Source: Psychromarinibacter sediminicola
GTDB taxonomy: Bacteria; Pseudomonadota; Alphaproteobacteria; Rhodobacterales; Rhodobacteraceae
Assembly (NCBI RefSeq): GCF_029168335.1
Contig: NZ_JARGYC010000030.1
Coordinates: 1-54,768 of the forward strand
DNA length: 54,768 bases
Direction of reading: 5' to 3'
Shown here piece by piece: positions 27,933 to 40,939 of this stretch. The notes beneath the pieces were generated by a model, which worked only from the letters and a program-made list of their open reading frames with translations, was not told where the DNA came from and did no database searches. The translations under genes were made by a program, and so were the position numbers. Numbering within the stretch: position 1 is the first letter of the stretch; each line of letters starts with the position of its first letter.

Positions 27933-28483
27933 GCGGCCTTCCACTTGATGCCGCAGCCCATCGACGGCACCTGCTCGGCCGGACCCTCGCCGGTCCTGGC
28001 GATCTGCCGCATCGCGTCCAGCAGGTCGGTGGTCGTGTCCGGCCCCGCCGGGTTCTTGCCGGCGTCGTCCAGCCGGCCGCGGTATTGCAGCTTCAGATCG
28101 GCGTTGTAGCCGAAGAAATCCGGCGTGCAGACCGCGCCGTAGGCCTTCGCCACCTCCTGGCTCTCGTCGTAGAGATAGGGGAAGGGAAAGCCGTGTTCCT
28201 CGGCGACGGCCTTCATGTTCTCGAAGCTGTCGTCGGGATGGGTTGTCACGTCGTTCGACGAGATCGCGGCCACGCCGATATGCATGTTCTGGAGATCCTG
28301 CGCGACGACGATGAACCGCTCCAGGATCGCCTTCACGTAGGGGCAGTGGTTGCAGATGAACACGATCAGCGTGCCCTTCTCGCCGGCCACGTCGGCCAGC
28401 GAATAGGTCTTGCCGTCGGTCGCGGGCAGGGTGAAATCGGGGGCGGGGGTGCCGAAATCGCAGACGGGGGGACGTTCAGCCAT
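27929..28483 (-). CDS. Thioredoxin-like / AhpC-TSA family protein
   Basis: 184 residues. The redoxin fold begins APDFTLPATDGKTYSL, and the active-site region reads FICNHCPYVKAI, a conserved single-Cys NHCPYV motif of a bacterial redoxin subgroup whose substrate is unsettled. Two further Cys occur (GAVCTPDFFG and SMGCGIKW). No signal peptide, so cytoplasmic. GGAGG is 5 nt before the ATG. It overlaps the HAD phosphatase by ATGA. Confidence 0.87.
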   Translation of the reverse strand: MAERPPVCDFGTPAPDFTLPATDGKTYSLADVAGEKGTLIVFICNHCPYVKAILERFIVVAQDLQNMHIGVAAISSNDVTTHPDDSFENMKAVAEEHGFPFPYLYDESQEVAKAYGAVCTPDFFGYNADLKLQYRGRLDDAGKNPAGPDTTTDLLDAMRQIARTGEGPAEQVPSMGCGIKWKAA

Positions 28484-28793
28484 GGGTTCCTCCTTTATCC
28501 TTCGCGGCGGAGTATAGCGCCGGGGACGGAACGTGCCATGGGGTGGGAGTGACGCAGGGCGGAGAGAACGGAGCCGCGCGAGGGTCGACGCGCGCGGGGG
28601 CGCACCGGCAATTGAGCTTCTCGTTTTATGGCTGCCAGGTTCGGACGACCTCCGAACTCTGCGATAACGTCCACCACAGCGCCGCCGCTCGGGTGCGCGT
28701 CGGCGCTTGCGCGGCGGCTTCGCCTTGTTCCGCGCTGGGGCCACGTACGGAAGCCCCGCGCGAACGTCCGGTCGCCGCTCGGAACTCCCTCCC
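28484..28793. other. Intergenic region with short inverted repeat
   Basis: 310 bases between the redoxin start and the CHAP gene's stop. Holds GTTCGGA-CGACC-TCCGAAC at 28639-28657 and an AT-richer patch CTTCTCGTTTTATGG near 28618-28632 that could be part of the leftward promoter. No credible ORF. Confidence 0.4.
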
Positions 28794-29342
28794 TCAGATC
28801 GGCGTGCGCGGGTCCGAGATGAAGCCGTCGATCCGGTAGACGCTGCCATAGGCGCCGGGGTTGGTCATCACCCGCACTTCCGACCAATCGTTGGCGGCCG
28901 AGACATCCTTGACCGGCATCGACAGCGACACCTGGTTGCGGTGCCAGTTGGCATGGTGGATGCGGATCTCGCGGTCGGACACCACCTCGGAGACCACCGC
29001 GATATGCCCCATCGGCAGCTTGCCCGTGCCGCTGAACGCCATGACTGCCCCGACCAGCGGCGTCTTGCCGCGGTGGTACAGCCCCTTCGCCTGCGGCCAC
29101 CAGGTGTCGGCATTGCCGCGAATCTCGATCCCGCTGGCATTGCGCGCGAAGGGCACGCACCACACCCGCGCGCCAGTCGCCCGCAGATCCGTCGCCGTGC
29201 TGATCGCGCGGCTGACAAGCTCGGGGTTCAGTGCGCCGGACGGTTCCTCCGGGGCGCGCGCGCAGGCGGCGCCGAGCATGAGAACGGCACACAGGCCCAT
29301 CAGGCGCAGCGGCGACGGCTGCAGGAAGGTGGCGATGGTCAT
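28794..29342 (-). CDS. CHAP-domain lipoprotein/secreted amidase
   Basis: 182 residues. The N-terminus LMGLCAVLMLGAACARA is a secretion signal, possibly lipoprotein type (Cys at the GAAC position). The CHAP fold shows the nucleophile Cys in RVWCVPFARN and the His in GHIAVVSEV, with HHANWH following, the layout of cysteine amidohydrolases that cut peptidoglycan peptides. The start is chosen at 29342, where AGGGA is 4 nt upstream; ATGs at 29357 and beyond are also in frame. It stands alone, 87 nt before rpe on the same strand order. Confidence 0.8.
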   Translation of the reverse strand: MTIATFLQPSPLRLMGLCAVLMLGAACARAPEEPSGALNPELVSRAISTATDLRATGARVWCVPFARNASGIEIRGNADTWWPQAKGLYHRGKTPLVGAVMAFSGTGKLPMGHIAVVSEVVSDREIRIHHANWHRNQVSLSMPVKDVSAANDWSEVRVMTNPGAYGSVYRIDGFISDPRTPI

Positions 29343-29429
29343 TCTGTCCCTCGGCATTCTCGTGACGGCCGCGGCCCTTTCGCGGGCCTTGTGGACAAGT
29401 TTCGGCAAATCGCCGGAAAAATCAAGGCC

Positions 29430-30128
29430 TCAGGCGGCCTGGCCCGTGGCCAACTCCGCCGCCTGGCGGATCGCGCGGATATTCTCGCCGTAGACACCGG
29501 CCTTTGCGACCGACCCGCCTTTGAACACGGCCGAGCCCGCCACCAGCGCGTCGGCCCCCGCACGCGCCACCAGCGGCGCCGTCTCGGGCGTCACCCCGCC
29601 GTCGACCTCGATATGCACCGGCCGGTCGCCGATCATCGTCCGCAGGGCGCGGATCTTCCCCGTCATGTCGAGGAAGGACTGCCCGCCGAAGCCCGGATTC
29701 ACCGTCATCACGCAGACCAGATCCACGAGGTCTAGCACATGCGCCACCGCCTCGGCCGGCGTGCCGGGGTTCAGCGCGACGCCCGCCCTGGCACCCGTCG
29801 CGCGGATCGCCTGCAATGTGCGGTGGATATGCGGGCCGGCCTCGACATGCGCCGTGATGATGTCGGCGCCCGCTTCGGCGAAGGCGTCGATATAGGGGTC
29901 GACCGGCGCGATCATCAGGTGGACGTCCATGACCGTACTCACATGCGGCCGGAACGCCTTTACCGCCGGCGGACCGAAGGTGAGATTGGGCACGAAATGC
30001 CCGTCCATCACGTCCACATGGACCCAGTCGGCGCCCTGCTCCTCGATGGCGCGAATCTCGCGGCCGAAATCGGCGAAATCGGCGGAGAGGATCGAGGGGG
30101 CGATCTTGATTCTGCGGTCGAAGCTCAT
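29430..30128 (-). CDS. rpe: Ribulose-phosphate 3-epimerase
   Basis: 232 residues, a TIM barrel that interconverts ribulose-5-P and xylulose-5-P in the pentose phosphate and Calvin cycles. Signature regions: IAPSILSADFADF (Ser, catalytic Asp region), WVHVDVMDGHFVPNLTFG (metal His and Asp), HLMI, MTVNPGFGGQSF, and HIEVDGGV (second catalytic Asp), with the phosphate-binding VAGSAVFKG. Complete and of normal length. The upstream side holds a palindrome array. Confidence 0.96.
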   Translation of the reverse strand: MSFDRRIKIAPSILSADFADFGREIRAIEEQGADWVHVDVMDGHFVPNLTFGPPAVKAFRPHVSTVMDVHLMIAPVDPYIDAFAEAGADIITAHVEAGPHIHRTLQAIRATGARAGVALNPGTPAEAVAHVLDLVDLVCVMTVNPGFGGQSFLDMTGKIRALRTMIGDRPVHIEVDGGVTPETAPLVARAGADALVAGSAVFKGGSVAKAGVYGENIRAIRQAAELATGQAA

Positions 30129-30201
30129 GCGCGGGGTCTCCGGAGGCTGGCGTGCGCGCCGCTCCTACAGCGGAACCGGCCCGGGCGTCCAGAGCCGTGG
30201 G

Positions 30202-30298
30202 GGAAAGCGGCTTCGAAGCCGCTTTCCTGCGCCGCCCCCGGACCGCGCGGCCAAGGGCCTTGCAAGGCCCTTGCCCCAAGGCGCTTGCAAGCGCCTTG
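30202..30298. repeat. Array A: three perfect palindromes
   Basis: Three loop-free perfect palindromes: 30202-30227 (26 bp, half GGAAAGCGGCTTC), 30252-30273 (22 bp, half CAAGGGCCTTG) and 30277-30298 (22 bp, half CAAGGCGCTTG). The last two are spaced by CCC only. The array lies between the rpe start and the nitroreductase gene, 51 nt before the latter's ATG. Related arrays occur at 33547 and 37290. Confidence 0.85.
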
Positions 30299-30348
30299 CC
30301 GTGCGCCGGTCGGGCACGGCAGGATGCCGCCCGACAGGGAGGACCGCC

Positions 30349-31233
30349 ATGACAGACCCCGACACCACGGATTCCGAAACCATTGCCTTCGCCGATGTGG
30401 TGCGCCAGCGCCGCTCCACCCGCAAGTTCGAGCCGGGCCGCGCCGTCGGCCGCGATGTGCTGACGCGCATCGTCGATTGCGGCCGCTGGGCCCCTTCGGG
30501 CGCCAACACCCAGTGCTGGGACTTCATCGTCGTCGACGACCCCGACCGGCGCGAGGCCGTGCGCCAGGTGTTCCTCGACCAGGCGCATCGGCTGGTGGAT
30601 CACGCCAAGGGATTCCCGGCCGTGTCGAAGAACTACCTCGCCAACACCGTGGCCATCGTGCTGGTGCTGGGCGACCCGCGCTGGAAGGTCTGCTTTCCGC
30701 AGCCGACCAGCCCGGACTGGGAGGCGGAATACGACGACAACAACGAGGCGATCTTCCTGTGCTCGCTCGGCGCCGCGATCCAGAACATCCAGCTGGCGGT
30801 GACGGCAGAGGGCCTGACCTCGGCCTGGCTCTCGGGCGGCGGCGAGGAGACCACGAACCGCGAACTGGCCGCGATCCTGGGCTATCCCGAGTGGATGCGT
30901 GCCTATGGCACGATCCCCATCGGCTACCCGGTCGCCACGCAGGACCGCCGGTATCGCCGGCCGATCGAGCAGGTCTGCCACTGGAACGGCTACGAGCCGC
31001 AGCACTACCGCCGCCATGCGCAGGTGGATTTCTACGAGAGCACCCTGCGCCCCTTCGCGATGTACCGCGACATCGAGGATCTGCGCGACTGGGACGACTA
31101 TGCGCAGAAGCTGGGCGACTGGGGGCCGGCCTTCACCACCGGCACGGCGAATCCCGACGGCCGGCTGGAGCCGGAGGCGGATTTCACCCGGCCGCGCACC
31201 GCCGGACGGGCGACAAAGGCGCGCAACCGCTGA
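30349..31233 (+). CDS. Nitroreductase-family protein
   Basis: 294 residues. The FMN-binding opening VVRQRRSTRKFEPG, APSGANTQCWDFIVVDD and the later LGAAIQNIQLAVTAEGL and IPIGYPV mark an FMN nitroreductase domain (~10-205). The remaining ~90 residues (WNGYEPQHYRRHAQVDFYE onwards) form a C-terminal extension not found in minimal family members. Such enzymes reduce nitro, quinone or other conjugated substrates with NAD(P)H; the physiological one is unknown. GGGAGG precedes the ATG by 7 nt. Confidence 0.87.
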   Translation: MTDPDTTDSETIAFADVVRQRRSTRKFEPGRAVGRDVLTRIVDCGRWAPSGANTQCWDFIVVDDPDRREAVRQVFLDQAHRLVDHAKGFPAVSKNYLANTVAIVLVLGDPRWKVCFPQPTSPDWEAEYDDNNEAIFLCSLGAAIQNIQLAVTAEGLTSAWLSGGGEETTNRELAAILGYPEWMRAYGTIPIGYPVATQDRRYRRPIEQVCHWNGYEPQHYRRHAQVDFYESTLRPFAMYRDIEDLRDWDDYAQKLGDWGPAFTTGTANPDGRLEPEADFTRPRTAGRATKARNR

Positions 31234-31354
31234 TCCGGGACGGCGGCGCCCCGAGCGGCCGCGGCGTGTTGCGACGGCACGGGGCCCTGCCAAGCCTCGA
31301 CAAGCGGCCCGAAAACCGGTCACCTGTCGCGAGACCCACGACCGGAGACGCCCC

Positions 31355-32725
31355 ATGCCCGACGCGCCGCTGACGCTCGACGCCCTGACCCTCGCCGCCG
31401 AGGCCGGAGAGATCGACACCGTCATCGTCGCGCAGGTCGACATGCAGGGTCGGCTGATGGGCAAGCGGTTCCACGTCGCGGACTTCCTCGACCATGCCCG
31501 CGATCACACCCATTCCTGCAACTACCTGCTGACCGTCGACATGGAGATGGAGCCGGTGCCGGGCTACAAATCCGCCTCCTGGGCGCAGGGCTACGGCGAC
31601 TACATTATGAAGCCTGACCTCGCGACCCTGCGCCGCATCCCCTGGGCCGCGGGCACGGCGCTGGTCCTGTGCGACCTGCTCGACCATGCGGGCGAGGCCG
31701 AGGTGCCGGTCTCGCCCCGCGCGATCCTCAAGCGGCAGCTCGCGCGGCTGGCCGATATGGGGCTCTCGGCGATGATGGCCTCCGAACTGGAATTCTACCT
31801 GTTCCGCCAGTCCTTCGAGGAAGCCCACGCCTCGGGCTACCGCAGCCTCGACCCGGTCAGCCCCTATAACGAGGACTATCACCTCTTCACAACCGTGCGC
31901 GACGAGCCGGTGATGCGCCCCCTGCGCAATGGCCTCTACGGCGCCGGCATCCCGGTGGAGAACTCCAAGGGCGAGGCCTGGGCCGGGCAGGAGGAGATCA
32001 ACGTGCGCTACGCCGACGCGCTGACCGCGGCGGACAACCACGTGCTGACCAAGCAGGCCGCCAAGGAGATCGCGCTTCAGGCCGGCCACGCCGTCACCTT
32101 CATGGCGAAATACGCCGATGCGCCCGCCGGATCCTCCTGCCACGTGCACCAGTCGCTCTGGACGCCCGAGGGCAACCCAGCCTTCCTGGACGCGGAGGCC
32201 CCGCATGGCATGTCCGCGCTGATGCAGCGCTATGTCGCCGGGCTGCTGGCGCATCTGCCCGAGATCACCCTGTTCCTCGCGCCCAACATCAATTCCTACA
32301 AGCGCTTCGTCGCCGGCACCTTCGCGCCCACCCGCGCGGTCTGGTCCCGCGACAACCGCACCGCCGGCTTCCGGCTGGTGGGCGAGGGCACGAAGGGTAT
32401 CCGCATCGAGAACCGGATCGGCGGGGCGGACCTGAACCCCTATCTCGCCTTTGCCGCCCAGATCGCCGCCGGCATGGCCGGCATCGAGAAGGGGCTCGAC
32501 CTGGAGCCCGAATTCACCGGCGATGCCTATGCCGCCGAGGCCGCCCGCGCCATCCCGGCCACGCTGCGCGACGCGGCGGGGCGGGCGAACGGCTCGAAGA
32601 TGCTGCGCGCCTCCTTCGGCGACGACGTGGTCGACCACTACGTCCACGCCGCCGAATGGGAGCAGTCCGAATACGACCGCCGCGTCACCGACTGGGAGGT
32701 GGCGCGCGGGTTCGAACGGTCTTGA
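31355..32725 (+). CDS. Glutamine-synthetase-family ligase (gamma-glutamyl polyamine/amine type)
   Basis: 456 residues. The beta-grasp N-domain (~1-115) includes VDMQGRLMGKRF. The catalytic domain carries the metal-binding Glu residues in ASELEFYLF and GQEEINVRYADAL, the HVHQSLW motif (His in the nucleotide site), NSYKRF and RDNRTAGFR. It lacks the regulatory Tyr-adenylylation loop of GlnA-I and groups by eye with PuuA/GlnT-like gamma-glutamyl ligases, which attach glutamate to polyamines or other amines. No classic Puu pathway partners are adjacent. Nitroreductase precedes and a HAD phosphatase follows on the same strand. Confidence 0.88.
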   Translation: MPDAPLTLDALTLAAEAGEIDTVIVAQVDMQGRLMGKRFHVADFLDHARDHTHSCNYLLTVDMEMEPVPGYKSASWAQGYGDYIMKPDLATLRRIPWAAGTALVLCDLLDHAGEAEVPVSPRAILKRQLARLADMGLSAMMASELEFYLFRQSFEEAHASGYRSLDPVSPYNEDYHLFTTVRDEPVMRPLRNGLYGAGIPVENSKGEAWAGQEEINVRYADALTAADNHVLTKQAAKEIALQAGHAVTFMAKYADAPAGSSCHVHQSLWTPEGNPAFLDAEAPHGMSALMQRYVAGLLAHLPEITLFLAPNINSYKRFVAGTFAPTRAVWSRDNRTAGFRLVGEGTKGIRIENRIGGADLNPYLAFAAQIAAGMAGIEKGLDLEPEFTGDAYAAEAARAIPATLRDAAGRANGSKMLRASFGDDVVDHYVHAAEWEQSEYDRRVTDWEVARGFERS

Positions 32726-32756
32726 CCGCTGCCGGCCGCGCCCCAGACTGACAATC

Positions 32757-33518
32757 ATGGCCAGGGGCATCCTCCTCGACATCGCCGGCCTGCTGCATGA
32801 CGGCGGCACGCCGATTCCCGGCGCGGCCGAGGCCGTGGCGCGGCTGCGCGCGGCCGGTCTGCCGGTGCGGTTCCTGACCAACACCACCAGCAAGCCGAAA
32901 CGCGCGGTGCTGGAGCAGATCGCGGCGTTGGGGATCGACGTGGAGCCTGAGGACGTGTTCACCCCGGCGCAGGCGGCCCGCGACCGGCTGATCGCCGAGG
33001 GCCGCGCGCCGCACCTGCTGATCCATCCCGACCTCGCCGAGGATTTCGAGGGCTGGCCGGAAGACGGCCCGAAGACGGTCGTCGTCGGCGATGCCGGGCG
33101 GTATTTCACCTACGAGGCGCTCAACGCTGCCTTCCGCGTGCTGGCCGAGGGGGCGCCGTTCCTTGCGCTGGCGGCCAACCGGGTGTTCCGCGACGGCGAC
33201 GGGGCGCTGTCGATGGACGCCGGCGCCTTCGTCAAGGCGCTGGAATATGCCTCGGGCACCGAGGCGGTGGTTCTGGGCAAGCCGGCGCCCGCGTTTTTCG
33301 CGGCGGCGGCCGAGAGCATGGGCTGTGCGCTGGACGACACCGCGATGATCGGCGACGACGCCGAGGCGGACGTGGCCGGCGCCCTCCGCGCCGGGGTCGG
33401 GACGGCGGTTCTGGTGCGCACGGGCAAGTTCGCGGAGGGGGACGAGACCGCTCACGAGCCCGCGCCCAGCCAGGTGGCAGACGATCTCGCGGCTGCGGTC
33501 GACTGGCTTCTGGAGTGA
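32757..33518 (+). CDS. LHPP-like HAD phosphatase
   Basis: 253 residues. The first HAD motif is LLDIAGLLHDGG, in which DIAG replaces the usual DxDG, as in the LHPP / TIGR01458 group (phospholysine-phosphohistidine-inorganic pyrophosphate phosphatase). Motif II is FLTNTTSKPK, and the later VLGKPAPAFF (Lys) and MIGDDAEADVAGALRAG (Asp pair) complete the site. The cap is of the C2 type (~85-185). The start is the ATG at 32757, 31 nt after the previous gene. The exact substrate is not deducible. Confidence 0.83.
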   Translation: MARGILLDIAGLLHDGGTPIPGAAEAVARLRAAGLPVRFLTNTTSKPKRAVLEQIAALGIDVEPEDVFTPAQAARDRLIAEGRAPHLLIHPDLAEDFEGWPEDGPKTVVVGDAGRYFTYEALNAAFRVLAEGAPFLALAANRVFRDGDGALSMDAGAFVKALEYASGTEAVVLGKPAPAFFAAAAESMGCALDDTAMIGDDAEADVAGALRAGVGTAVLVRTGKFAEGDETAHEPAPSQVADDLAAAVDWLLE

Positions 33519-33867
33519 TGACCGGACCGCGCCCGCCGGCGCGGAACACGATCTTCTAGAAGATCGTGCCGCGCGGAATTTTCTAGAAAATTCCGTAATG
33601 TCAAAATCTTCTAGAAGATTTTGCCCCCGGGAGGCCGGTGAAGCGAAAGCAGCCCGCGCGGGCCGCCGATCCCGCGACGGGCACCGCGGGAGGGATGTTC
33701 CAGCCGACACGGCTTGACGCGCCTCCGGCCCCGCCGGACAGTGCCCGCCGGGGAGGAGAGCATGCACGCATTGTCCAGGCGCGACGGGTCTTGGCCAAGA
33801 ACACCGGGCGGGTGCGTGCCGGGCTCGGCCGATGCCGGCCCCACGGGCCCCGTCCGCCCGGCTGCTC
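33519..33867. other. Intergenic region with palindrome array
   Basis: 349 bases. The left third holds array B (33547-33623). The rest is GC-rich and shows no ORF with convincing codon use and no promoter I would defend. Confidence 0.5.
33547..33623. repeat. Array B: three perfect 22-bp palindromes
   Basis: 33547-33568 (half CACGATCTTCT), 33574-33595 (half CGGAATTTTCT) and 33602-33623 (half CAAAATCTTCT) are each loop-free and perfect, start with C and end with G, and centre on TCTAGA. Start-to-start distances are 27 and 28 bp. The outer halves differ while the centres are shared, and two of the three arms recur in array C. Confidence 0.9.
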
Positions 33868-35247
33868 ATGCAGGCTGATGTCGCCATCATCGGCTGCGGC
33901 CCGACCGGCGCGCTTCTGGGCAACCTGCTGGGCGCGCGCGGCCTGAGCGTCGCGATCTTCGAGAAACAGCCCGCTATCTACGACCTCCCCCGTGCCGTCC
34001 ATTTCGACGGCGAGACGATGCGTGTGTTCCAGTCCGCCGGGCTGGCCGAAGCGGTGCTGCCGGAAACCCGCGTGAACCCGGGGATGCTGTTCAAGGATCC
34101 CGCGGGCCGGACGCTCATCGACTGGTCCCGCGACATGTCCATCGGCCCGATGGGCTGGCCCGAAAGCTACCGCTTCCACCAGCCGGGGCTAGAGCGGGTG
34201 CTGCGGGCGGGGCTGGCCCGCTACCCGAATGTCAGGCTCCACGAGTCGACCGCCGTCACCGCGCACCGGCAGGACGATACGGGCGTGACGCTGACCACCG
34301 ACAAGGGCACCTACGGCGCTGCCCATGTCGTCGCCTGCGACGGCACCGGCTCGCCCACGCGCGAGGCGCTGGGGATCGGCCTGCACGACCTGGGCTTTCA
34401 CGAGCGCTGGCTGGTGGTCGATCTCCGTCTCACCCGCGACCGCCCCGACCTGGGCGACCACTCGATCCAGTTCTGCGACCCCGAGCGCCCGGCCACCTAC
34501 GTCCGCTGCGTCGGCCCGCGCCGCCGCTGGGAGATGCGGATCGACTCGGGCGACCCCGATCACTTCGCGCCGGACGAAATCTGGCGCCGCCTGTCCCGCT
34601 GGATCACGCCCGCCGACGCCGACCTGGAACGCGCCGCCGTCTACACCTTCCGTTCGCGCCTCGCCGCGCGCTGGCGCGAGGGCCGCGTCTTTCTCGCCGG
34701 CGACGCCGCCCACCAGACGCCGCCCTTCATGGGGCAGGGGATGTGCGCCGGCATCCGCGACGCGGCCAACCTCGCCTGGAAGCTGGCGGCGGTGCACCAC
34801 GGCGTCGACCCCGCGATCCTCGACACCTACGAGTCCGAGCGTGCGCCCAACGCCCGCGCCTTCATCCAGCTTGCCGCCGATATGGGCCAGCTCATCAACC
34901 AGACGGTCCAGGGCCACCTGCCGCAGGGCCGGATGCGTTCGATCTGGCCCGACCTCGGCCCCGGCCTCGGCCCCCGCGACGGCATCGGCGGCGCATTGGC
35001 ACCGCAGGTCGGCCGCGCCGACGACGCCGCGCCCACCGGCTTCCACCTCCTCACCCGCGCGCCCTTCGACGCCGACCTGCCCGCCGCCCAGGGCGCCGAG
35101 GACTGGCTCGCGGAACGCGACCTCTTCGGTGTGATCCTGCGCCCCGACGGCTACGCGCTCGACCACGCGGCGACGCCGGAGGGTCTGCACGAGGCGCTGG
35201 CGCGGCATGCCGACCTGCTGGATGCCGTGCCGCCGCGCAGGCTCTGA
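33868..35247 (+). CDS. FAD-dependent monooxygenase (MhpA-like)
   Basis: 459 residues of the class A flavoprotein hydroxylase family. Dinucleotide fold VAIIGCGPTGALLGNLLGAR at the N-terminus, the DG motif VACDGTGSPTR near 155, and the GD motif VFLAGDAAHQTPPFMGQGMC near 275 all look intact. The best-known relative is 3-(3-hydroxyphenyl)propionate hydroxylase, which hydroxylates aromatic acids with NADH and O2. No ring-cleavage dioxygenase or other pathway gene is adjacent, so the substrate is open. Two in-frame ATGs precede; the one at 33868 places the Rossmann strand at residue 3, the family norm. Confidence 0.88.
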   Translation: MQADVAIIGCGPTGALLGNLLGARGLSVAIFEKQPAIYDLPRAVHFDGETMRVFQSAGLAEAVLPETRVNPGMLFKDPAGRTLIDWSRDMSIGPMGWPESYRFHQPGLERVLRAGLARYPNVRLHESTAVTAHRQDDTGVTLTTDKGTYGAAHVVACDGTGSPTREALGIGLHDLGFHERWLVVDLRLTRDRPDLGDHSIQFCDPERPATYVRCVGPRRRWEMRIDSGDPDHFAPDEIWRRLSRWITPADADLERAAVYTFRSRLAARWREGRVFLAGDAAHQTPPFMGQGMCAGIRDAANLAWKLAAVHHGVDPAILDTYESERAPNARAFIQLAADMGQLINQTVQGHLPQGRMRSIWPDLGPGLGPRDGIGGALAPQVGRADDAAPTGFHLLTRAPFDADLPAAQGAEDWLAERDLFGVILRPDGYALDHAATPEGLHEALARHADLLDAVPPRRL

Positions 35248-35284
35248 TCTGTTCTCGCCCGTCCGACTGGATTACAGAACGTCC

Positions 35285-36163
35285 ATGACAGGACGACCGG
35301 ACATCATCGTGGCGATCGACGGCGGCGGCTCGGGCTGCCGCGTGGCGCTTTGCACGGCCGACGGAACCCGCATCGCACAGGCCGAGGGTGCCGCCGCCAA
35401 CGTCGCCTCGGATTTCGATGCCGCGGTCGGCCATCTCGCCGCAACGCTGGAGACGGCCCGCGCGCAGGCCGGCCTCGCTCCGGCCGACCTGCGCCGCGCG
35501 CCGGCCTGGGCCGGTCTCGCCGGTGCCATCGAGCCCGCGATATGCGCCCGGGTCGCCGCCGCCTTGCCGCTCGACGATGTGCATGTCAGCGACGACCGCC
35601 CCACGACCATGGCCGGGGCTCTGGGCGGGGCCGACGGCTGCCTCGCCGCCGCCGGCACCGGCTCGTTCTTCGGCCGCCAGGTAGACGGCCGCCACCGCTT
35701 CGTCGGCGGCTGGGGGCTGCAGCTCGGCGATCAGGCCTCCGGCGCCTGGCTCGGCCGCAAGCTGCTGTCGGCCGTGGTCGACTGGCAGGACGGCCTCCGC
35801 CCGCAGACGCCGCTGCTCGAAGAGACCTTCGCCGGTTTCCGCACCCCGGCGGAGGTGGCCTATTTCTCCCTGCGCGCCACGCCCACCGACTATGCCGCCT
35901 TCGCCCCGCGCATTGTCGCCGCGGCGGGGCAGGGCGATGCGCTGGGCCGCAGCCTGATGCAGGAAGGCGCCGACTGGATCGCCCGGTGCCTCCACGCTCT
36001 CGGCGCGGAAGCGGGAGAGACGGTCTGCCTCACCGGCGGCATGGGCCCGCATTATGCGGGCTATCTGCCCGCCGACCTCACCGCCGCGCTGATCCCGCCG
36101 CGGGGCACGCCGCTCGATGGCGCGATCCTGCTGGCCGCCGACCGCGCCCGGCGCGCCGCGTGA
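35285..36163 (+). CDS. BadF/BadG-type N-acetylglucosamine kinase
   Basis: 292 residues of the ASKHA fold. Phosphate-1 motif IVAIDGGGSGCRVALC at the N-terminus, the adenosine region AAAGTGSFFGRQ and GGWGLQLGDQASGAWLGRK, and VCLTGGMG near 255. Members phosphorylate GlcNAc or related amino sugars with ATP. It overlaps nagA by GTGA (36160-36163), which makes the kinase/deacetylase assignment strong: GlcNAc to GlcNAc-6-P, then deacetylation. The ATG at 35285 is chosen; an upstream in-frame start would run into the previous gene. Confidence 0.88.
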   Translation: MTGRPDIIVAIDGGGSGCRVALCTADGTRIAQAEGAAANVASDFDAAVGHLAATLETARAQAGLAPADLRRAPAWAGLAGAIEPAICARVAAALPLDDVHVSDDRPTTMAGALGGADGCLAAAGTGSFFGRQVDGRHRFVGGWGLQLGDQASGAWLGRKLLSAVVDWQDGLRPQTPLLEETFAGFRTPAEVAYFSLRATPTDYAAFAPRIVAAAGQGDALGRSLMQEGADWIARCLHALGAEAGETVCLTGGMGPHYAGYLPADLTAALIPPRGTPLDGAILLAADRARRAA

Positions 36164-37329
36164 GCCGCCACGTCCATATCGCCCGCGCCGTGTTCGACGG
36201 CACGCGGCTGCACGAAGGCCACGCGCTGCTGGTGGAGGACGGCCGGGTCGCCGGCCTTACCGCGGAGCCGCCCGCGGGCATGCCCGTCACCGACCACGGC
36301 GACGCGATCCTCGCCCCCGGCTTCGTCGACCTGCAGGTCAATGGCGGCGGCGGCGTGATGCTGGACTGCAGCGCGACGCCTGGCACGCTCGCCCGCATCG
36401 CCGAGGCGCACGCCCGGCGCGGCACCACGGCGCTCTTGCCCACGCTGATCACCGATACCCCGGACGCGACCCGCGCCGTGATCGACGCCGTCGCGCAGGC
36501 CATCGCCGCGGGCACCCCCGGCATCGCCGGCTTGCATCTCGAAGGCCCGCACCTGTCGACCGCGAAGAAGGGCGCCCACCGTGCCGACCTCGTCCGTCCG
36601 ATGACCGACACCGACCTCGCGCGCCTGCGCGAGGCTGCCGCGCGCCTGCCCGCGCTGATGGTCACCGTCGCGCCGGAGGCCGTCCCGCCCGACCGGATCG
36701 CCGCGCTGGTCGAGGCCGGCATTATAGTCTCCCTCGGCCACAGCAACGCGCCCTACGACAGCTGCATCGCGGCCGCCGCGGCGGGCGCCCGCTGTGTCAC
36801 GCATCTGTTCAACGCGATGAGCCCGCTCGACTCCCGCGCCCCCGGCCTCGTCGGCGCTGCGCTCGACTGCGGCACGCTGGCGGCGGGTGTCATCGCCGAC
36901 GGCATCCACATCCACCCCGCGACGCTCGGCGCGGCGCTCCGCGCCAAGCGGGGGCCGGCCCGCCTGTTCCTCGTCACCGACGCGATGGCCGTCGCCGGCA
37001 CCGACCGCGATTGCTTCGCGCTGAACGGACGCCGAATCGCGCGCCGCGACGGGCAGCTGATGCTCGAGGACGGCACGCTCGCTGGCGCCGATCTCGACAT
37101 GCCCCGCGCCCTCGCGCAGGTCGCGGCGCTGGGCGTCGGTCCCGAACAGGCGCTCGCCATGGCCACGTCGATCCCGGCCGCGGTGATCGCGCAGGGCGAC
37201 CGCCTCGGCCACCTCGCCCCGGGGCGCGCGGCCGACTTCGTCGCCCTGACCCCGGACTGGCAGCTCGGCTCCGTCTGGCGCGGAGCCGACAAAATCTTCC
37301 AGAAGATTTTGCCCCGCCGAGATTTCTAG
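36160..37329 (+). CDS. nagA: N-acetylglucosamine-6-phosphate deacetylase
   Basis: 389 residues, GTG start overlapping the kinase stop. Amidohydrolase signatures: APGFVDLQVNGGGGVML, the metal Glu in HLEGPHLS, substrate/metal His in SLGHSNAPYD and CVTHLFNAMSPLD, GVIADGIHIHP, and the catalytic Asp in LVTDAMAVAGT. It converts GlcNAc-6-P to GlcN-6-P and acetate. The last ~14 residues (from about KIFQKI) are encoded by array C, whose second palindrome contains the stop codon, so the natural C-terminus has probably been extended or replaced by the repeat. The core enzyme is complete. Confidence 0.93.
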   Translation: MSRHVHIARAVFDGTRLHEGHALLVEDGRVAGLTAEPPAGMPVTDHGDAILAPGFVDLQVNGGGGVMLDCSATPGTLARIAEAHARRGTTALLPTLITDTPDATRAVIDAVAQAIAAGTPGIAGLHLEGPHLSTAKKGAHRADLVRPMTDTDLARLREAAARLPALMVTVAPEAVPPDRIAALVEAGIIVSLGHSNAPYDSCIAAAAAGARCVTHLFNAMSPLDSRAPGLVGAALDCGTLAAGVIADGIHIHPATLGAALRAKRGPARLFLVTDAMAVAGTDRDCFALNGRRIARRDGQLMLEDGTLAGADLDMPRALAQVAALGVGPEQALAMATSIPAAVIAQGDRLGHLAPGRAADFVALTPDWQLGSVWRGADKIFQKILPRRDF

Positions 37330-37365
37330 AAATCTCGGCCCCGCACGATCTTCTGGAAGATCGTG
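37290..37365. repeat. Array C: three 22-bp palindromes on an exact 27-bp period
   Basis: 37290-37311 (arms CAAAATCTTC, centre CA), 37317-37338 (half CCGAGATTTCT, perfect) and 37344-37365 (arms CACGATCTTC, centre TG). Starts are exactly 27 bp apart and both spacers read CCCCG. The first and third arms are those of array B in the opposite order. The array overlaps the 3' end of nagA. Confidence 0.9.
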
Positions 37366-37432
37366 CCCCCTCTCGACCCGCCGCCCGCCGCCGCGCTATG
37401 CTCGGCCGCAAAACCACGAACGGCAGGTCGCG

Positions 37433-38698
37433 ATGCAGTTTCCCCCGACTCACTCCCGCCGCGCCGCGCTGGCGCTCTTCGCCGCCGGCGGCCTCGCCGC
37501 CTGTTCCGGCGGCCCCGGCCGGTTCGCCACAGGCCCCGCCGACGAGGCGCCCGGCACCGATTACCGGCCCGTGCCCAACCCGGGCTTCGACGCCTGGGTC
37601 GCGTCGTTCCGCAATCGCGCCCAGGGCGCCGGCATCTCCGAGGCGACGCTGGGCCGCGCCCTGCGCGATGTGGGCTTTCTGCCCGACGTGATCGAGCGCG
37701 ACCGCAACCAGGCCGAGGTGCAGCGCTCGCTGCAGGACTACCTCGCGCTGGCGGTGGACGACGACCGCGTGTCGAACGGCCGCGCGGCGCTGCGCCGCCA
37801 CGACGCCACGCTCTCGGCCATCGAGGCGCGCTATGGCGTCGAGAAGGAGGTGGTCACGGCCATCTGGGGCGTGGAAAGCCGCTATGGCAAGCGCCGCGGC
37901 GATATCCCCGTGGTCTCCGCGCTGGCGACGCTCGCTTATGACGGCCGCCGCGGCGGGTTCTTCGAGAAGCAGCTGATCGCCGCCCTGCGCATCCTGCAGA
38001 ACGGCGATATCACCGTCGACCGGATGACCGGCAGCTGGGCCGGCGCCATGGGGCATACGCAGTTCATCCCCACCTCCTACCAGGCCTATGCCGTGGATTT
38101 CACCGGCGACGGGCGCCGCGATATCTGGTCAGAGGATCCGACCGACGCGCTGGCCTCCACCGCCGCCTACCTGCAGAATTCCGGTTGGCGCCGCGGCCAG
38201 CTCTGGGGGGTGGAGGTGACGGTGCCGGCCGGCTTCGACGCCGGGCAGGCCGGGCGCGGGCGCAACCGTTCGGTGGCCGACTGGCAGGCGCAGGGCGTGC
38301 GGCCGGCCGCCGGCGGGGCGCTGCCCGATCACGGGCCGGCGGCGATTCTGCTGCCCGCGGGACCGAGCGGCCCGGGCTTCCTGACCTTCCGCAACTTCGG
38401 CGTCATCGCGCGCTACAACAACGCCGACAAATACGTGATCGCCGTCGGCCACCTCGCCGACCGCATCGCCGGCGCCGGCCCCCTGCGCGGCACCTTTCCG
38501 CCGGATGCGCAGGGGCTGACGCTGGCCGACCGCAAGGAACTGCAGCGCCGCCTGACCGCCGCCGGCTTCGACACGGACGGCACCGACGGCGTGGTCGGCC
38601 CCGACACCATCGCCGCCATCGAGGCATACGAGCGGGCGAACGGCCTGCCGGTGACCGGCACGGCGACGCGGGCGCTTTTGCAGCGGCTGCGGGGGTAG
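37433..38698 (+). CDS. Lytic murein transglycosylase, MltB type, with PG-binding domain
   Basis: 421 residues. Signal with lipobox LAAC near residue 23, so probably outer-membrane anchored. The SLT_2 catalytic domain (~50-320) has the Glu in WGVESRYGKRRG, followed by GSWAGAMGHTQFIPTSY and DFTGDGRRDIW as in MltB. A C-terminal PG_binding_1 domain (~355-420) reads LQRRLTAAGFDTDGTDGVVG. It cleaves glycan strands to 1,6-anhydroMurNAc ends. Its place directly after nagK-nagA suggests a link to wall turnover, though array C and 100 nt separate them. Confidence 0.92.
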   Translation: MQFPPTHSRRAALALFAAGGLAACSGGPGRFATGPADEAPGTDYRPVPNPGFDAWVASFRNRAQGAGISEATLGRALRDVGFLPDVIERDRNQAEVQRSLQDYLALAVDDDRVSNGRAALRRHDATLSAIEARYGVEKEVVTAIWGVESRYGKRRGDIPVVSALATLAYDGRRGGFFEKQLIAALRILQNGDITVDRMTGSWAGAMGHTQFIPTSYQAYAVDFTGDGRRDIWSEDPTDALASTAAYLQNSGWRRGQLWGVEVTVPAGFDAGQAGRGRNRSVADWQAQGVRPAAGGALPDHGPAAILLPAGPSGPGFLTFRNFGVIARYNNADKYVIAVGHLADRIAGAGPLRGTFPPDAQGLTLADRKELQRRLTAAGFDTDGTDGVVGPDTIAAIEAYERANGLPVTGTATRALLQRLRG

Positions 38699-38861
38699 GG
38701 CGCCCGGTTCGCGCGGGCGTTGGCGCGCTGGAATGGAAGGGGCGGTTTCCCGTCCGGCACGACGTTCCGCGCCTACCGAATGGCAGGCTGCGGGTCCGGT
38801 GCGTCCTGTGCCGACGTGCCCTGTGCTACCGGACCCTCGCGGGCCGCGGCCGCCCGCGGGT

Positions 38862-39608
38862 TCAGGCGGCCTGAAGGTCGGCGACGGCCAGCATGCGGTC
38901 GCGCTCTGCGCCGTACAGCACCGCGCGGGCACGACCGGCGCCGCGGGGCACCACGGCGATGCGGCAGGCGGCTCCCACCTCCAGCGGCGCCATGAACCGG
39001 CAGGTCAGGCGCGACAGCGTGCCGTCCAGCACGGGCTCGGCCAGGGGCTGGATCAGCGCGAGCAGCAGCATTCCGGGCACGATGGGCGCGGCAAAGCCGA
39101 GGGCCGCGGCCGCCTCCGGATCCCGGTGAATCGGGTTTTCGTCGCCGGAAAGCGCAAGGTAGCGATCCGTCTGCGACCGGGACACGGTGACGGGGGCGGT
39201 TTCGGCGGCCTCGGCCAGCATCGCGGCGCGGAAGGGCGCAGCGGCCGCGCCGGCGACCTGCGCCACGTCGTAGAGCCGCAGCGCCGTGGTCAGCGTCACA
39301 GCGACGCTCCCGGCCTCCAGGACAAAGGTATATTCGGTGCCGCTGGCGCCATCGGTGGCGCGCGCCGTGGCGCGCAGGGGGCTGTCCGGCGGCAGCGGGC
39401 CGGAGCGGTCGATCCGCTGGTAGTCATGCACCAGAACCTGCCCGTGTGCCGCCTCCGGCACCGGCAGCGCGGCCTTCACGGCCGGGTCGGAGAACAGCAT
39501 TGCCGGGGCGGTCCAGGGCTGATCCCGCGGGGCCGCGCCGGTGATCTCTGCGATCAGTGCCGAAAGCGCCTGGGTGGCGGCGGCGGGAAGGGACAGGGAA
39601 AGCGTCAT
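38862..39608 (-). CDS. MaoC-like (R)-specific hydratase/dehydratase
   Basis: 248 residues forming a hot-dog fold. The first half (~1-125) looks like a divergent N-terminal hot-dog, and the second half carries the hydratase motif LSGDENPIHRDPEAAAALGFAAPIVPGM-type core (here DENPIHRD with catalytic Asp and His, then IVPGMLLLALI). Such enzymes interconvert 3-hydroxyacyl and 2-enoyl thioesters. It lies 98 nt after the ketosynthase on the same strand, so dehydration of an ACP-bound 3-hydroxyacyl chain is likely. The ATG at 39608 is chosen; its ribosome site is weak. Confidence 0.82.
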   Translation of the reverse strand: MTLSLSLPAAATQALSALIAEITGAAPRDQPWTAPAMLFSDPAVKAALPVPEAAHGQVLVHDYQRIDRSGPLPPDSPLRATARATDGASGTEYTFVLEAGSVAVTLTTALRLYDVAQVAGAAAAPFRAAMLAEAAETAPVTVSRSQTDRYLALSGDENPIHRDPEAAAALGFAAPIVPGMLLLALIQPLAEPVLDGTLSRLTCRFMAPLEVGAACRIAVVPRGAGRARAVLYGAERDRMLAVADLQAA

Positions 39609-39706
39609 CTGCGGTGCGCCCGTCCGGGTCTGCGCGATGCCGTCCGTCGCGCGACGACACGCAATGGCCCGAGGCGCGCGCGTGGCCCGTGACCGCCCGT
39701 CATCCG

Positions 39707-40939
39707 CTAGAGCCGCGCGGCGCTGCCGAGGATCAGCGAGGCGTTGATGCCGCCGAAGGCGAAGGAGTTGCACATCGCCGCGGGCGCGTCGAAGGCCCTT
39801 GCCGCGCCATGCACCGGTTCGAACCCGATGGCCGGGTCGAGTTCGCCGAAATTGCCCGAGGGCGGGGCGAGGCGGTTGCGCAGGGCCTGCAGCGTGATGA
39901 TCGTCTCCAGCGCGCCGGCGGCGCCGAGCGCGTGGCCGTGGATCGGCTTGGTCGAAGACACCGCGACCTCGTCGAAACGGTTGCCGAAGACGCGGCGCAT
40001 CGCCTGCGTCTCGGACAGGTCGTTGGCGACCGTGGCGGTGCCGTGAGCGTTGACATAGCCCACCTCGTCCGCCCGCAGCCCGGCATCGGCCATCGCGCGG
40101 GTCATCGCGCCGGCGGCACCGTCGGGGTCGGGGCGCAGCAGGTCGCCCGCGTCCGTCGTGGTACCGTAGCCCACGATCTCGGCCAGCGGTTCGGCGCCGC
40201 GGGCCTCGGCGGCCTCCAGCGTCTCCAGGATCAGGATGCCGGCGCCTTCGCCCAGCATCATGCCGTTGCGGTCGCGCGAGAACGGACGGCAGGCGTCGGG
40301 CGACAGGACGCGCAGCATCTCCCAGGCGCGGAACACGCCGGCGACGACGCAGGCCTCCGACCCGCCGGTGATGCAGCGCTCCATCGCGCCGGCGCGGATC
40401 AGCTGATAGGCGAGCCCGATCGACTGGCTCGCCGAGGAACAGGCGGTGGAGATGCAGTAGGCCGGCCCGCGCGCGCCCCAGGTCATCGAGATCCAGGACG
40501 CGGCGGCGTTCGTCATGATCTTGGGGATCGCCATCGCGTCGAGGCGCTGGGGCGACCCGCCGTAATGCTGGGTGAAGAATTTCAGGTAATTGGCGTCGAG
40601 CGTCTCGGCCCCGCCGAAGCCGGAGCCGACGATCACGCCGCAGTCCTCGCCGAAGTCCGCCTCGGTCAGGCCGGCCTGGGTGATGGCCTCGTCCGCGGCG
40701 ATCAGAGCGAAGCCGGCGACGCGGTCTTGCATCCGGGGCTTCAGCCGGTCGGCATAGGGGGCGAGCATCGCCGCGTCGATCGACGCGGCGATCTTCACCT
40801 TCTGGTCGGGAATCGTATCGAAGTCGATCTCGCGGGCAGCCGACACGCCGTCGCGCGCCGACGACCAGAGGGCATCGACGCCGGCGCCGCAGGGCGAGAA
40901 CGCCCCGGCGCCCGTAATGACGATCCGGGGCGGCGTCAT
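39707..40939 (-). CDS. Beta-ketoacyl-ACP synthase (FabF/NodE-like)
   Basis: 410 residues, thiolase fold. Catalytic Cys in CISTACSSASQSIG, His residues in NAHGTAT and KPIHGHALGAAGALE, and the C-terminal NSFAFGGINASLIL are complete, so a condensing enzyme rather than a chain-length factor. It elongates an acyl chain on ACP. The start ATGA overlaps the stop of the small ACP gene (40936-40939). The dedicated ACP and the MaoC protein indicate a specialised lipid or polyketide-like product, not the housekeeping fatty acid system, where fabF pairs with acpP and fabG. Confidence 0.9.
   Translation of the reverse strand: MTPPRIVITGAGAFSPCGAGVDALWSSARDGVSAAREIDFDTIPDQKVKIAASIDAAMLAPYADRLKPRMQDRVAGFALIAADEAITQAGLTEADFGEDCGVIVGSGFGGAETLDANYLKFFTQHYGGSPQRLDAMAIPKIMTNAAASWISMTWGARGPAYCISTACSSASQSIGLAYQLIRAGAMERCITGGSEACVVAGVFRAWEMLRVLSPDACRPFSRDRNGMMLGEGAGILILETLEAAEARGAEPLAEIVGYGTTTDAGDLLRPDPDGAAGAMTRAMADAGLRADEVGYVNAHGTATVANDLSETQAMRRVFGNRFDEVAVSSTKPIHGHALGAAGALETIITLQALRNRLAPPSGNFGELDPAIGFEPVHGAARAFDAPAAMCNSFAFGGINASLILGSAARL

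Follow-up and report, generated by a model that had tools for sequence, protein, structure and literature searches.

Dispersed arrays of non-identical 22-bp palindromes near gene 3' ends in Psychromarinibacter sediminicola: a candidate REP-like element

Judged from its sequence, the palindrome array at 33547–33623 of the window (the whole stretch of P. sediminicola DNA analysed here, 54,768 nucleotides) is one of about 40 copies of an element of about 77 bp, or about 50 bp when it has two units, composed of tandem, non-identical palindromes. The genome holding the window (G000) comprises 5.03 Mb in 278 contigs. We tentatively favour the reading that the element is REP-like and acts at 3' ends, where its hairpins in tandem may protect the mRNA and/or help to terminate transcription, and that it was presumably spread by some further machinery; we hold this to be a plausible account, and the best of those considered.

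The three perfect 22-bp palindromes with differing arms that were originally predicted at this site were confirmed by exact coordinates (Table 1), as were the TCTAGA centre, present in all three units of array 1, and the period of about 27 bp, which corresponds to centre-to-centre spacings of 27 and 28 bp. The prediction was incomplete, since a second triplet (array 2, 37290–37365), with centre spacings of 27 and 27 bp, also lies in the window. The window contains ten palindromes that are perfect over 22 bp or more, whereas 60 first-order Markov shuffles gave 0.12 on average and never more than 2; the ten include the three units of array 1, the middle unit of array 2 and three units of a second family (30202–30298). 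The supposed rarity of CTAG held for the tetranucleotide itself, with 16 occurrences in the window against 55 expected, but not for TCTAGA, which was not depleted (4 against 2.2 expected). All four TCTAGA sites of the window fall within arrays 1 and 2.

Table 1. Palindromic units and neighbouring genes of the two arrays in the window
Feature	Position	Strand	Description
Array 1 unit 1, type A	33547..33568		CACGATC-TTCTAGAA-GATCGTG, perfect palindrome
Array 1 unit 2	33574..33595		CGGAATT-TTCTAGAA-AATTCCG, perfect palindrome, 27 bp from unit 1
Array 1 unit 3, type B	33602..33623		CAAAATC-TTCTAGAA-GATTTTG, perfect palindrome, 28 bp from unit 2
Array 2 unit 1	37290..37311		CAAAATC-TTCCAGAA-GATTTTG, 10/11 pairs, centre CA, inside amidohydrolase reading frame
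Array 2 unit 2	37316..37339		24-bp palindrome GCCGAGATTTCTAGAAATCTCGGC; the upstream gene stops at its TAG
Array 2 unit 3	37344..37365		CACGATC-TTCTGGAA-GATCGTG, 10/11 pairs, centre TG
HAD-like hydrolase, upstream of array 1	32757..33518	+	Pfam PF13344/PF13242; own ORF caller
FAD-binding domain protein, downstream of array 1, same strand	33868..35247	+	Pfam PF01494; start by own ORF caller
Amidohydrolase, upstream of array 2	36160..37329	+	Pfam PF01979; stop inside array 2
Lytic transglycosylase, downstream of array 2	37433..38698	+	Pfam PF13406

The gap between the stop codon of the HAD-like hydrolase gene and array 1 is 28 nt, and contains a GC-rich near-palindrome, CCGCGCCCGCCGGCGCGG, at 33527–33544, which forms its own hairpin in folds. 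At array 2, the reading frame of the amidohydrolase, which may be NagA-like, enters the array (37290–37329) and stops at the TAG of the middle unit (37327–37329), so that the array encodes the last residues of this protein.

To describe the family across G000, we used a pair pattern (TTCYRGAA-N19-TTCYRGAA), which gave 41 matches and none with the reversed control, and a stricter pattern of the 22-bp unit, which gave 76 matches. An array sample of 807,288 bases, consisting of the window and 40 stretches (30 around matches and 10 elsewhere), contained 38 arrays, none of which was in the 10 stretches chosen elsewhere. Three core-bearing units were found in 30 arrays, two in 7 and one in 1 (before extension of the arrays, three in 30, two in 5 and one in 3), with centres 27 or 28 bp, rarely 29 bp, apart. 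This number and spacing, together with an arrangement that is kept at five orthologous locus pairs, support the proposal of an ordered element. The extension yielded one core-deviant unit (L109) and, being lenient, also four GC-rich core-less units (L106, L110, L117 and L119) that were regarded as chance; none of these entered the later unit counts.

Each unit consists of two 7-bp arms flanking TTC-YR-GAA. The constant part is thus TTC-YR-GAA and not TCTAGA as first proposed, since the centre is TA in just 65 of the 105 units of G000, the others having TG (20), CA (19) or AA (1), and CG in none. By these counts, pairing does not extend to the two bases at the centre. The constancy of TTC and GAA is in part a matter of construction, because the finder required the core. 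Perfect 10-bp arms, leaving out the centre, were present in 99 of 105 core-bearing units, and the pairing, 0.99 at position 10, was 0.37 one position further out, showing that the unit is sharply 22 bp in length. The commonest arm types were A (CACGATC, 27 of 104 units), B (CAAAATC, 20) and C (CAGGATT, 20).

The two arms of a unit vary together. Among 82 distinct units from five genomes, the mutual information was 0.71–1.34 bits for partner positions 3–7, at most 0.29 bits for non-partners and 0.03 bits for the centre. When G000 units that differ from one another in the centre alone were omitted, 31 of the 42 distinct units remained; 98.1% of their cells were paired, and the covariation score was 0.615, as compared with 0.186 in shuffled sets (0 of 500 shuffles) and at most 0.183 in slid ones. 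Two of the five covariation measures applied to these 31 units, double-change pairs (188/500) and further pair types (128/500), were not above the shuffles. Arm sides that covary almost perfectly around a centre that does not are the signature of a hairpin.

We then compared arrays at orthologous loci, which were assigned by their flanking proteins in a systematic check. The HAD-like hydrolase gene used as a query for orthologues returned distant homologues only. The check gave four pairs between the congeneric genomes G295 and G297, one pair between G000 and G297, and one G000 array (L122) facing both L168 and L180, which was omitted from the divergence counts as it sets three units against two. 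The five locus pairs among the three genomes carried seven double arm changes, all seven of which were still paired, and four single changes. The best case was L103 compared with L184, an ungapped array between orthologous genes with five compensated pairs. Of 154 arm sites 18 differed, as did 6 of 22 sites in the centres, 15 of 30 in the spacers and 46 of 100 in the flanks, such that the spacers had diverged about four times as much as the arms (50% compared with 12%, P = 8e-6). Perfect arms were present in just 26 of 42 congener units. The imperfect pairs in tandem arrays comprised seven G-T and five A-C on the mRNA strand, with no clear G-U preference, so that hairpins of single-stranded DNA may also come into question; a G-U bias, considered as proof of selection at the RNA level, was not seen.

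One explanation for this covariation is mutational: intra-strand template switching could perfect imperfect palindromes, and the arms would covary without selection. Such switching is reported for quasipalindromes of E. coli (PMC7202029), and it would suit the high perfection of the G000 units (99/105) and the lack of a G-U excess. Under this mechanism, however, the arms should drift like the spacers, which is contrary to the divergence found at the five locus pairs, and the location, copy number, phasing and shared arm types of the arrays are left unexplained. We consider that template switching has very little probability as the source of the pairing.

The arrays occupy a particular position relative to genes, as called by a simple codon-based ORF caller of our own. 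Thirty-six G000 arrays had both neighbours called, and 15 lay between convergent, 21 between tandem and none between divergent genes, in comparison with 48, 221 and 107, respectively, of 376 array-free intergenic regions longer than 60 bp (Fisher 1.4e-5 for the depletion of divergent and 5e-5 for the enrichment of convergent pairs). Outside G000, placement between divergent genes was seen for one congener array and one array in another genus. The distance from stop codon to array had a median of 13 nt over 53 gene ends of G000 (at most 30 nt in 41 of them), and of 12 nt over 100 gene ends from five genomes. A few arrays overlap gene ends; a stop codon lay within the array in 6 of 74 arrays examined, and in 4 of these 6 it was the TAG of the core. 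The order of units in an array was independent of gene direction, and a constant A-B-C order with respect to the gene was rejected, as both orders occurred on both strands.

It had been suggested that the array looks like an ordered element rather than a terminator. If the arrays were ordinary intrinsic (Rho-independent) terminators, the 3'-end location, the enrichment between convergent genes and the hairpins would all be as expected. The GC-rich hairpin with a U-tract that is typical of such terminators was not found: none of 100 gene ends had TTTT within the 12 nt following the array. Moreover, the mean unit energy was -8.0 kcal/mol, and a terminator scan of 33300–33900 gave a single hit (0.4 expected) that was not based on a unit's own hairpin. 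Ordinary intrinsic terminators are thus very improbable, and in this respect the suggestion stands; it does so less well in another, because the arrays lie at gene 3' ends, and for this reason a role at transcript ends leads despite the missing U-tract.

Folding predictions were made for single arrays. The region 33520–33640 had z-scores of -5.1 as RNA and -6.8 as DNA, part of the RNA value stemming from the GC-rich hairpin upstream of array 1. In the minimum-energy RNA fold of array 1, unit 1 pairs with unit 3 around a hairpin of unit 2, whereas all three unit hairpins are predicted in the fold of single-stranded DNA. Over the array folds, 69 of 104 units formed their own hairpin.

The place of the arrays, the covarying stems and the unpaired tips would fit hairpins that act at transcript ends, on both strands where the genes are convergent. 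According to the 3'-end reading that we favour, an array would form the last part of the upstream gene's transcript, or of both transcripts if the genes are convergent, and each unit, on emerging, would fold into a stem of 9 bp tipped by C-YR-G. In series, these hairpins could block 3'-to-5' exonucleases and thereby set the mRNA 3' end, and they may slow RNA polymerase, favouring factor-dependent termination from both sides. The element itself would have been spread by further machinery, and the units retained would be kept by selection on their pairing.

The TTC/GAA core exceeds what a generic stem needs, and this counts against the 3'-end reading, although the finder asked for the core. A constant core with variable flanks, the two-fold symmetry, the regular phasing of 27–28 bp and the AT-rich island (39% G+C in a window of 69% G+C) would each be expected of an operator-like DNA array, in which a putative homodimeric DNA-binding (nucleoid-associated) protein sits on each TTC-YR-GAA core, at two or three adjacent sites, and serves as a roadblock or anchor at gene ends. 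A protein that reads the core gives no reason for arms that are varied and strictly complementary, nor for the lack of arrays between divergent genes in G000, and we regard an operator-like array as improbable.

The distribution of the family is patchy. The pair pattern matched 41, 13 and 9 times in G000, G295 and G297, respectively, and gave no match in the two other genomes of the genus, G296 and G152. Matches were found in 19 of 295 genomes of the family, some of which were not arrays. At eight such loci that were inspected, palindromic arms (9–11 of 11 pairs) were present in four, one each in G286, G241, G069 and G011, and absent from the other four (G277, G274, G212 and G113); the pair pattern was therefore rejected as a marker of the family. 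The strict unit pattern matched 8 of 380 genomes of an order-wide sample, among which only G000 and G065 had more than two matches, and 1 of 289 genomes of a class-wide sample, namely G000. Arm types A, B and C are common to G000 and two other genera (G207 and G286), and one array sequence is identical in G297 and Maritimibacter sp. ih11 (CP051232.1). Among named genomes, a triple core pattern found 59 stretches; seven had arms of the array-family kind, six of these coming from a single genome of an uncultured Rhodobacteraceae and the seventh from Maritimibacter sp. ih11, and one Campylobacter stretch had palindromic arms of another sort. In the other 51, several of which are short tandem repeats, each unit had 0–5 arm pairs out of 7. 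The palindromes are thus neither singles at chance frequency nor unique to this strain, being clustered in G000 and kept at orthologous loci. They occur in some congeners and other genera, but most sampled Rhodobacteraceae lack the pattern. Clustering in threes applies to G000 (30 of 38 arrays), but two units were found in 18 of 20 congener arrays and in 11 of 16 arrays of the two other genera. The congener arrays came from 12 of the 13 matches in G295 (C4:36734 being left out) and all 9 matches, at 8 loci, in G297, and those of the other genera from 5 regions covering the 18 matches of G286 and 6 contigs covering the 10 of G207.

A contig of an uncultured Campylobacter (L072:7690–7751) carries three similar palindromes with a 27-bp period and the TTCYRGAA core, on other arms; this triplet is probably convergent with the G000 family.

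Only 3 of the 20 congener arrays had a counterpart at the same gene end in G000, and some gene ends have an array in the congeners and an empty orthologous end in G000. Considering this together with the congeners without the pattern, no single array looks indispensable. Such quick positional turnover speaks for mobility and disfavours any single array being essential; the small number of counterparts weighs slightly against the favoured explanation and for a selfish one.

Regarding known repeats, the original statement that no named family fits holds insofar as none with the exact sequence was found, but small extragenic palindromes of the REP/BIME type are an obvious known kind. A literature search over titles and the openings of abstracts returned no description of such arrays. 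Rfam gave no match at the gathering score for five carrier loci, and in 28000–40000 of the window its sole match was a miRNA model on array 2, with 28.2 bits against a gathering score of 110. As described in PMC3733652, REP elements and BIMEs (the GTAG superfamily, with RAYT transposases) are palindromes of 20–40 bp in many copies, most of which lie between genes that are convergent or in tandem, and which in the two species shown in diagrams are often less than 20 bp from the 3' end; their termini can supply a TAG stop codon, and hetero-dimers with different stems are known. As far as that description goes, our arrays resemble them as small, dispersed extragenic palindromes in many copies (41 paired units) between convergent or tandem genes and near 3' ends, and in the stop codon supplied by the repeat, through the core in array 2 and through the termini in REPs. 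The arrays differ from REP/BIME in having loop-free 22-bp units with spacers of 5–6 bp, usually three to an array in G000 and never identical. Of 148 array ends, only 7 carried the unpaired GTAG tag, which is nevertheless about 50-fold over background, and the RAYT domain (PF01797) was found in 0 of 12 genomes, while a control set was positive in 5 of 14. Membership in the REP/RAYT system was rejected on these two features, and the arrays are filed with small extragenic palindromes and not with REP proper.

The same source describes CGTC REPs as mostly alpha-proteobacterial repeats at 3' ends for which no dedicated transposase is known, with stems of 8–9 bp, loops of 4–5 nt, a CGTC tag, a CCA tail and mostly a head-head dimeric arrangement. 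Our arrays share with these the alpha-proteobacterial host, the 3'-end location and a transposase that was not found, but have loop-free units and CGTC at 0 of 148 ends. A weak AxGYRR pattern was noticed in the 6 bp outside the arrays, at both ends (for example, at L107, L113, L103, L171, L173, L181 and L184). Among the alpha-proteobacteria, palindromic intergenic repeats also include rhizobial RIME and other intergenic mosaic elements. These elements are not known to match the arrays in sequence or length.

These data bear on whether the arrays are a selfish palindromic miniature element with no host function, which moves by hairpin-recognising single-strand transposition and persists at 3' ends as the least harmful insertion sites. 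Pairing would then be maintained because the mobilising enzyme needs hairpins. The patchy presence among congeners and genera, the 17 of 20 congener arrays lacking a G000 counterpart, the empty orthologous gene ends, the indifference of unit order to gene direction and the arm types shared across genera are all in line with this, as are the GTAG tags, of which the 148 array ends had 7, from 5 independent loci, where 0.14 would be expected. Against it, 141 of the 148 ends have no GTAG, the Y1 transposase domain PF01797 is missing from all 12 genomes, six of which are carriers, and shared arrays keep their pairing while the spacers diverge, as unused copies would not. A purely selfish element is accordingly possible but rather unlikely. 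The arrays extend the known REP-like repeats by a family that combines fixed phasing, a non-identity rule and arm covariation at orthologous loci, in genomes that yielded no RAYT domain. The spread of RAYT-less palindromic repeats, and an RNA role as the reason why gene-end repeats are kept, thereby become testable, and the number of hairpins required at an mRNA 3' end could be read from the natural series of two and three units.

Neighbouring units avoid identity. Within an array, 0 of 97 pairs had identical 7-bp left arms, compared with 13.7 expected and a minimum of 4 in 2000 shuffles, and the mean arm distance inside arrays was 2.99 as compared with 2.40 ± 0.11. Because they are not identical, the units should cross-pair less and be poor substrates for slippage deletion. 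Selection against deletion or against pairing between units may account for the non-identity, as may derivation from one original A-B-C set.

A second family of tandem palindromes, with the core pattern CAAGNNNCTTNNAAGNNNCTTG and TTCGAA or TTGCAA centres, is represented at 30202–30298 of the window. The pattern matched 27 times in G000 and 0 times in the four other genomes of the genus. The palindromes of this family are 22–26 bp long, with a period of about 22–26 bp or double that, and its 14 arrays of two to four units contained no identical pairs (3.8 expected, P = 0.0085). It thus resembles the first family in 22-bp units and in arrays of non-identical units, and differs in being GC-rich, in its core, in its absence from the congeners and in some divergent loci (3 of 17 fully flanked loci compared with 0 of 36, P = 0.03). 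A bolder reading is that hetero-palindrome arrays are a distinct class of element, in which non-identity is itself selected and two or three C-YR-G-tipped hairpins that do not pair with one another form a multi-step 3'-end device read by a putative RNA- or ssDNA-binding protein. One machinery would then have built both of two families unrelated in sequence, or they would have converged on it; we regard this as unlikely.

Two of the two-unit arrays contain hybrid units with mixed arm types, for example A on the left and C on the right (L118:14952–14973 and L117:15335–15356). These hybrids are possibly scars of inter-unit recombination through the common core.
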